In this document: positions 44,401 to 47,400 of the stretch, one piece after another | Layout of the letters: every line of letters begins with the position of its first letter | Numbering within the stretch: position 1 is the stretch's first letter | Assembly (NCBI RefSeq): GCF_040954835.1 | Contig: NC_090696.1 | Coordinates: 77,871,722 to 77,935,721, forward strand | Source: Lepisosteus oculatus | Lineage: Eukaryota > Chordata > Actinopteri > Semionotiformes > Lepisosteidae | Direction of reading: 5' to 3' | Length of the DNA stretch: 64,000 nucleotides | Made by a program: the position numbers and the translations under genes | Notes under the pieces: model-generated | Told to the model about the DNA's origin: nothing | What the model saw: only the letters and a program-made list of their open reading frames with translations | Databases searched by the model: none

Positions 44401-47400
44401 CTGGAGGAGGTGGAGCTGGAGCTCAGGCCCGAGTCGGTCATCGGGGAGGGCTGGTATTCAGGCAGGAAATCGTGCACACCTGCGGGAGAACAAGGGTGTC
44501 TGAGCTGGTATTCGAGCAGGAAGTCGTGCACACCTGTGAGAGAACAAGGGTGTCTCAGCTGGTATTCGGGCAGAGAGTCCTGCACACCTGCGGGAGAACA
44601 AGGGTGTCTGAGCTGGTATTCAGGCAGGAAGTCGTGCACACCTGCAAGAGAACAAGGGTCTCTGAGCTGGTATTCAGGCAGGAAGTCGTGCACACCTGCG
44701 GGAGAACAAGGGTGTCTGAGCTGGTATTCGGGCAGGAAGTCGTGCACACCTGCAAGAGAACAAGGGTGTCTGAGCTGGTATTCAGGCAGGAAGTCGTGCA
44801 CACCTGCGGGAGAACAAGGGTGTCTGAGCTGGTATTCGGGCAGGAAGTCGTGCACACCTGCGAGAGAACAAGGGTGTCTGAGCTGGTATTCGGGCAGAAT
44901 GTCCTGCACACCTGCGGGAGAACAAGGGTGTCTGAGCTGGTATTCGGGCAGGAAGTCGTGCACACCTGCGGGAGAACAAGGGTGTCTGAGCTGGTATTCA
45001 GGCAGGAAGTCGTGCACACCTGCGGAAGAACAAGTGTGTCTGAGTGCCAACTCCGCTGGTACACTTGACGCTGTCCTTGACGGTTTTGTTTGCTTGTCAG
45101 TGACCCATTTCAGAGCGCTCCCGCAGAAGGTAACCACAGGTAGCTGCAGCACGGTATTTGGGAAGTGTGTTAAATTACCATACTTACATAATGCACACAC
45201 GTTCTTCCTGCCTGCTTAGGGTGTTTATAGAGATCTTGTTCTCAACACTAACGAGGTTCAGGGCTGCTGAAGGCGGCTTTGTCTCCACCTGCTGGCTATG
45301 TCTGGAATTACAGGCCGCTTTATCCCAGCAGGGGGTCCAGCTCACCTGCTGGCTTCCATTCCAGCCGAGATCTTTATGCAACTTGAACTAACAAGTTGCT
45401 TGACCAGACCCTTGAACAGCCGGGCGGCCCGTTGTGCGGTGGTTATCCGCGGGCGCCACACTCACCGGTGAAGTTGTACTCCACGTGCGGGGTGTGCTTC
45501 ACGGTGAGCACGCGCAGGTCGTTGAACTCCCTGTTGCGCAGGAGCACAGACGCCAAGGACTGGACGCCACCGTTGGCCCCCTGCACAACCAGCAGGTGCA
45601 GGAGCAGCCTCCTGCAGTGCTCGTACACCTCCGGGTGCTGGTGGTCGAACCCTAAGGAGCAGAAGAGGAGAAACTGTACCAACGCGTCTGCCCTGGCAAG
45701 CGGACCGCTCTCAGTGTGGTAACGCTCTGCTGGCAAAGGGACACAGACACTTGTCTAGGGGAGCGCTCGTAGAAAAGGCATTTCAGAGCAAACGTTAAGG
45801 GTTAAGTGTCTCTCTCTTCCAAACATGCCGCTTATGGTAACATGAGAGACACAAGAGACTGACTGGGATTATAATACCCCTCTGAGAAAGACTGTACGCA
45901 GAGCGCAACCTGAAAATGCACTTTTGTGTGTCCCTGTTGGCTCTCTTCAAGCCTTCGCCAAGCTGTTCGCTGCAGGCCGGGGGCCGGGGGCCGCGTGCAC
46001 GCTGCAGGCCGGGGGCCGGGGGCCGGGGGCGGGGGCGGGGTGGGCTGCTCACCGATGAAGATGGCGTGCAGGAGCAGGTGCAGGTAGCTGCTCCACTCCA
46101 CCTTCACGCCGTGGTCCACGATCAGGTCGGTCAGCAGGATGACGGCAATGTTGCACCTGGAACACAGCGCGCGGACAAGGTGACGCCCAGCCCAGGAGCG
46201 CCGGGGACTGTGGAGGAGCAGCGGGCGCTGGCTGCAGCCCTGCTCACCTGTGCAGGGGGACCCCCAGGTTGTTGGTCTCCGGCAGGTAGTCCACCAGGGG
46301 CGACCAGCAGCCGCCCGTGGGCGGGAAGGGAAGGGGCTCGGGGCGGTTGTGCTCCATCACCTTCAGCCGCCAGTTGGCGTACAGGGGCATGGAGTCGCCT
46401 GGAAAACACCGATTCCCACAGCGTCAGCGACCACGGCGCGCCCTGCAGAGCTCGCCTCGCATCCCGGCCCTCGTCTCTCAGTTCGCCCTCCACACTGCGC
46501 CGCACGACCTTCCCCGCCGCGTCAGCTGCATCTCCAGTGAACCGCACCCAGGCGCCCCCGAAAGCGAACATGAGCATGCGAACGGTTACTAAGGAGAGGA
46601 GGCTCTTCGGCTCATCTATCCTGCTTTTTATCCGGCCTGTTGATATCCTATTGCTCCTGGTATCTCTGTCGGCTGATTCCCGAGGGAGGCCAGGCTGTCT
46701 GCTTCAACACCAATGCTGGGTAGCTTGTTCAAAATCCCCACCGCCCCTTTTACATAAAAAGAGGAGCTTCCTGTTCTCAGTTTTGAAAGCACTTCCCCTA
46801 ACTTCCATGGGTGTCTTCTAGTCAGCACTGAAGCAAAGACCACCTCAGCAAAACTCTACCTTTTTATCCAGCGCAAAGCAGACACCGAGGCTGACAGCTG
46901 TCCTCGGAAGAAGAGAAGAATAGGTCTCCCCTACACACTGAAAGTGACATCACAAGGCAGCTGCCATTTTCATTATTACTGCTCTTAGTCTTTTTCAAGA
47001 GAGCCAGGCTACCGGGGTGAGCCAAGTCCCCGTTCAGACAAGGATTACCGGGAGACAGCCTTAAAACTGTAAAACCAAGTTTGAACACTTTACATTGACA
47101 TAATTAGTTTACAACTGAATACCATTAGGCTACAGAAAACGCCCCTTCCTAGCCCTATGGGCACCAGGGATTCGCAGAGAAGCGACCCCTCAGCCCGGCG
47201 GCTGTGTCTGCTCTCGGCAGCGGACAGTGCGACCCGCGCTCTGCTTACTCTTCTCCTCCTCGTAGGAGCCCCCCGAGCTGCTGCTGTAGCGGGACTCCAG
47301 GCGGTGATGCTGCCTGCTCAGGTTGCCGTTCAGCCCGCTGTAGACGTCCAGGTGGGCGTAGCTGCGACACACCAAGCAGGAGAGGGGAGGTCAGACTTGC

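Follow-up and report, generated by a model that had tools for sequence, protein, structure and literature searches.

Which splice acceptor serves an exon whose start has been copied many times over, and how can a gene carry such an array? This question is raised by fryl in the 64,000-nt stretch of DNA analyzed here (the window; positions are counted from its first letter), where a minisatellite lies across the beginning of an exon. TRF resolved the array into 11.0 copies with a period of 54 bp (92% matches, 0% indels, score 1022), which agrees with the 11 units at 54-bp spacing of the original prediction. Read along the transcript, each unit joins the final 25 nt of the intron (CTCAGACACCCTTGTTCTCCCGCAG) to the initial 29 nt of the exon (GTGTGCACGACTTCCTGCCYGAATACCAG) and corresponds to 18 residues in the fryl frame. 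Intron and exon sequence of one boundary, which is supported by the paralogue fry, are both contained in each of the 11 units. A pyrimidine tract followed by ACAG/GTGTGCA or GCAG/GTGTGCA (the slash marks the splice boundary) was found at all 11 positions 44479+54k, confirming the acceptor that had been claimed for every unit, and AG/GT is unchanged throughout. The peptide VHDFLPEYQ, which had also been assigned to every unit, is exact in 8 of the 11; unit 8 encodes VQDILPEYQ, unit 2 VQDSLPEYQ and unit 1 VHDFLLEYQ.

Table 1 Features of the fryl boundary array and its surroundings, in window positions.
Feature	Position	Strand	Remarks
Minisatellite, 54 bp x 11	44450..45044	-	Unit = intron end + exon start, fryl frame
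fryl exon, short (paralogue-like) form	44278..44479	-	202 nt; phase 1 start (G/GT Gly); donor CAG/GTGCGT; homologous to fry exon C5:14712420-14712614
Upstream fryl exon	45466..45651	-	186 nt; donor CCG/GTGAGT common to all possible splices; homologous to fry exon C5:14711383-14711571
Last, gene-proximal acceptor region (unit 0)	44480..44504	-	Score 12.9, 96th percentile of 48; five other units score equal
First, distal acceptor region (unit 10)	45020..45044	-	Score 11.6, 83rd percentile; use would give a 742-nt exon
Six further arrays	35685-35911, 39045-39160, 45975-46040, 50030-50469, 54888-54988, 58845-59198		Near fryl exon edges

The array itself, 11 near-copies without indels, is not a product of chance. 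When the assembly (1.20 Gb, 813 contigs) was searched with two units as DNA query, five matches were obtained, all within the fryl array; this search skips very common words and scores the best candidates only, and its five matches do not prove the array to be unique. The 7-mer TACCAGC, which belongs to the exonic portion of the unit (GAATACCAGC), recurs in intron sequence a short distance upstream of the array (45055..45061, minus strand); spotted by eye, this shared word may be a relic of the event that gave rise to the first duplication. In units 2 and 8, an additional AG is present 8 nt inside the exonic portion (window 44579 and 44903; GTGTGCAG/GAC), a weak acceptor by score (5.7), the use of which would break the frame.

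To what extent do the copies preserve the reading frame? The upstream exon (45651-45466) was spliced in silico to each of the 11 acceptors, and all 11 products were free of stops, the two-exon fragment growing from 128 to 308 residues by 18 residues per unit. The claim that the frame is kept from the donor at 45466 to any acceptor, with k x 18 residues added, thus stands. However, five of six frames are open in the consensus unit and three of six are free of stops in the real array; of 5000 shuffled consensus units, 62% were open in a given frame. Multiplied by 1/3, the probability that a unit length is divisible by three, the shuffle result gives a joint chance of ~0.2. Because shuffled units are so often open too, the open, in-frame array is weak evidence and not remarkable, arising about once in five by chance.

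The differences between the units were analyzed in the same frame. The 11 units differ by 14 distinct substitutions, five of them synonymous (36%) and nine not, compared to 26% synonymous expected with transitions weighted twice; no coding constraint on the units was detected in these 14 changes among similar copies, which give little power. Selection on the long peptide was tried as an explanation and dropped, the unit variants giving no signal in this test. The units are mostly distinguishable, with 6 and 4 as the sole identical pair. Certain variants are common to non-adjacent units (8 and 2; 7, 5, 3 and 1), which suggests block duplication or exchange of units. Array length is therefore likely to be variable, a turnover in copy number that is hinted at in the one allele at hand.

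The paralogue fry, on contig C5 of the same genome, has the same phase-1 split-Gly junction with one acceptor (GGCCAG/GTGGTTTTGAC), and TRF reported no array at this junction. For this reason, the fryl array is most simply seen as derived, that is, as the expansion of one ancestral boundary. Human FRYL, too, is not known to have more than one such exon start.

In order to compare the 11 acceptors with those of the rest of the gene, we used 51 fryl exons mapped on contig C1 by tblastn against fry, phase-aware AG/GT pairing and consensus weights, which yield an approximate map. The scoring matrix was derived from 48 of the 51 exons, three doubtful ones having been dropped; the array exon, which had no candidate in the map with the frame anchor used and was added by hand, lies outside this set. 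Two joints of the map are flagged for phase. One follows from the gap at the array exon (the joined product 45651-42376 is open), and the second, at 46398, is without explanation. The 11 acceptors score 10.7-12.9, corresponding to the 69th-96th percentile of the 48 mapped fryl acceptors (leave-one-out), where percentiles for acceptors as well as donors are rough because the mapped sites were chosen partly for their consensus. By this measure the 11 acceptors appear close to equal in strength, and the sequence picks no winner among them. The AG-free stretch in front of them measures 16-18 nt, compared to a map median of 29. The description of the array as in-frame tandem sites that look acceptor-competent is supported.

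The original prediction had suggested that the long form could be the main one if the first AG after the branch point were favoured. A single strong branch point above the array was considered and rejected: in a scan of 15-59 nt, a weak candidate (CTCAG or CTGAG) was found 22 nt upstream of each of the 11 acceptors instead. Since each unit carries its own candidate, no single branch point was found whose first AG would win. Exon length likewise speaks against a predominant long form, as splicing to the first acceptor gives 742 nt and splicing to the last 202 nt; the mapped exons (n = 51) have a median length of 141 nt and do not exceed 623 nt. Exon sizes favour the last acceptor; no unit is clearly favoured by the sequence itself. 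A CTGAC spotted by eye at 45100-45096 is ~78 nt upstream of the first acceptor and separated from it by intervening AGs.

On balance, we consider it probable that the array is a mirage-type minisatellite that is spliced mainly to its last acceptor and is tolerated since any leakage stays in frame. Consistent with this reading are the single acceptor of fry, unit variants that look neutral, a junction outside the Pfam match and an RNA with no unusual fold. In such a scenario, a 54-bp tract reaching from 25 nt before the fryl intron-exon boundary to 29 nt beyond it would have been tandemly duplicated and would then have grown to 11 copies via unequal exchange or slippage. The spliceosome would probably act mainly at the gene-proximal position 44479, leaving the ten upstream copies intronic; we judge this acceptor of unit 0 the likeliest main one because it yields an exon of ordinary size and a paralogue-like protein. 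If an upstream acceptor were used now and then, FRYL would gain 18 residues for each unit, next to a Ser-rich region. The array may be tolerated because the unit is divisible by three in length and lacks a stop in the fryl frame. What speaks against the last acceptor is that the acceptors are near-equal and the branch-point candidates alike, and nothing in the sequence seems to force the choice of the last one.

It is rather unlikely, in our estimate, that the array works as a set of tandem acceptors, several of which are used to give FRYL isoforms with 18 to 180 additional residues that vary with allele length. Such a use would be consistent with acceptors at or above the usual strength for this gene, with 11 products that are all open and in frame, and with the shared unit variants, which imply turnover in copy number. 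The position of the junction is compatible with it as well. In the 232-residue spliced fragment, the Pfam domain MOR2-PAG1_mid covers residues 113-227 and the junction lies at residues 61-62; the match is clear of the junction, and an insertion there would thus fall outside the known domain match. Searching Pfam up to E 1 with this fragment gave one other match, sub-threshold, at residues 110-132, which leaves the junction uncovered. Against the use of several acceptors stand exons of up to 742 nt compared to a median of 141, units that show no sign of coding constraint, and the regular splicing suggested for the amphioxus precedent (PMC3087553).

Further searches around the junction were negative or led to rejected candidates. 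No match in the PDB was found for the 128-residue junction fragment at E 0.001, no Rfam family matched in the window at gathering thresholds, and the 661 nt assayed for an unusual RNA fold showed none (z 0.12; 10 of 20 shuffles folded at least as well). The translated array matched DUF870 (E 1.4e-9, 38.4 bits, above the cut-off of 27.1; residues 68-87), with no stretch passing alone; this match was judged to be the sum of weak matches of a repeat and was discarded.

Two other readings start from the fact that the boundary CAG/GTGTGC resembles a donor as well as an acceptor. Every copy could serve as both, giving a length-combinatorial, self-healing junction with FRYL isoforms that carry 0-10 extra 18-residue repeats, in which retained copies could be spliced again and allele length would act as a splice rheostat; we regard this as distinctly improbable. 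We give slightly less credence still to a self-excising proto-splice array, in which, no matter which acceptor is chosen first, retained units would be removed later as introns of 54n nt, probably of two or more units, with the frame always restored. The GTGTGC donor scores 7.4, which is the 40th percentile of the 48 mapped donors, by the same rough measure, and the 98th percentile of 7729 gene-strand GTs in the region, and a mapped fryl donor at 52159 reads CAG/GTGTGT. Duplicated AGGT is, in addition, a recognised path to new introns according to two sources (PMC3443670; PMC2891723). However, positions +4 and +6 of the donor are off consensus, and the fry acceptor AG/GTGGTT also scores 6.4 as a donor, for which reason the AG/GT of the units may be inherited and need not be functional. 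Least probable of all is an assembly artefact in which the unit number, or the array as such, is erroneous: we are dealing with a single assembly and one haplotype, and a genome draft is reported to have misassembled such an array in amphioxus (PMC3087553), but the fryl units are mostly distinct, with ordered variants and no indels, and are unlike a simple assembly loop.

Tandem arrays were also recorded near other exons. Seven of the eight TRF arrays at 19653-64000, where 41 fryl exons were mapped, either span an exon edge or are no more than 50 nt away from one; a ninth array of the window, at 13327-13360, is outside the mapped part and was left uncounted. Random placement that avoids exons, and hence cannot put an array across one, gave a mean of 1.02 at 50 nt (P 0.00025, the lowest value that 4000 trials allow), and the corresponding values were 5 of 8 versus 0.42 at 20 nt (P 0.00025) and 7 of 8 versus 1.85 at 100 nt (P 0.0007), in a test that was devised after the distances had been looked at and that includes the fryl boundary array itself among the seven. 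Placement anywhere, including exons, gave a mean of 3.43 at 50 nt (P 0.008), with P 0.03 at 100 nt and P 0.14 at 20 nt. Of the six further arrays listed in Table 1, five closely follow a fryl donor and one closely precedes an acceptor, at distances of 5-43 nt from the exon edge. Exon sequence is contained only in the boundary array, the other near-exon arrays being intronic by the exon map. In fry, where GC is lower (0.39), the proximity of arrays to exons was not significant at 50 nt: two of seven arrays were that close, including one within an exon, versus a mean of 0.62 (P 0.12).

Further observations were made at globin genes. In a globin gene on contig C12, one exon is flanked on either side by the same 62-bp minisatellite (L031:1303-1459 and L031:1749-2144), and this minisatellite appears to fill most of the upstream intron, with introns judged by eye. 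A 42-bp x 8.7 array (L036:1059-1423) contains an acceptor-like CCTGATCCCAG in several units and ends 77 nt before an acceptor AG, which appears to be that of cytoglobin exon 2. At C19:16206715-16264809, globin exons lie together on both strands of one contig; by eye, some resemble the alpha and others the beta type. With contig numbers that reach at least C29, this would fit a ray-finned fish, possibly a gar.

The fryl array would be informative whichever way it is spliced. Exclusive use of the last acceptor would make it a natural experiment with eleven near-equal acceptors in cis, and a clean test of exon definition versus first-AG models. Use of several acceptors would show a minisatellite that looks neutral giving rise directly to variation in protein length.

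How does this structure compare to known systems? Neither a fryl minisatellite nor an 11-fold acceptor array was found among the matches listed for open-licence PMC, which cover titles and the starts of abstracts. In amphioxus, the mirage minisatellites of BflGb6, BflGb9 and Adh3 are described as minisatellite-like tandem duplications of an intron-exon boundary (PMC3087553). In BflGb6, the 3' end of the intron and the 5' part of exon 2 are duplicated, with six and three units in two haplotypes, while the Adh3 array has units of 10-72 bp and shows somatic instability; RT-PCR suggests that regular splicing is undisturbed, and it has been proposed that arrays of intron-exon boundaries supply the raw material from which new introns arise (PMC3087553). 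BflGb6 resembles fryl in combining intron 3' end and exon 5' part in each unit, and on its own side has AG/GT signals in many units as well as concerted evolution within the array. The amphioxus units are longer, with 150-160 bp in BflGb6 and 157 bp in BflGb9 compared to 54 bp in fryl; moreover, amphioxus is a cephalochordate and not a vertebrate, and the accessible portion of the report describes no in-frame array.

In human CBS, the variant 844_845ins68 duplicates the intron 7/exon 8 junction, and the more distal site is strongly favoured, resulting in normal mRNA (PMC2630376). The text of this source says 'donor', yet the title it cites concerns 3' splice site selection (PMC2630376), and traces of another transcript are mentioned elsewhere (PMC1334203). 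Like the fryl array, this naturally occurring variant repeats an intron-exon junction and offers splice sites in tandem, two in this case, but it consists of one extra 68-bp copy, which is not a multiple of three and forms no minisatellite, and its splicing outcome is known. By analogy, the two close precedents from amphioxus and human CBS would favour the gene-proximal acceptor, although site choice in CBS may rest on elements that are absent from the fryl array. A second human CBS variant, the 31-bp VNTR c.1444_1467+7, has alleles of 16-21 copies (PMC2630376). It is likewise a minisatellite and, as its notation indicates, extends from the end of an exon into the intron; it differs from fryl in lying on the donor instead of the acceptor side and in its unit of 31 bp, not a multiple of three. 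The primary paper on this repeat is reportedly that of Lievers et al. 2001.

Duplicated AGGT as a source of introns has been reviewed (PMC3443670) and was proposed for cases in Drosophila (PMC2891723). As in fryl, a duplicated AG/GT supplies donor and acceptor in this model, which, however, starts from exonic sequence, whereas fryl has multiplied an existing acceptor with no new intron shown. Arrays of this structure are thus already known in kind from lancelets and humans; particular to fryl are the acceptor side, the 11 units, the in-frame unit length and the setting in a vertebrate gene.
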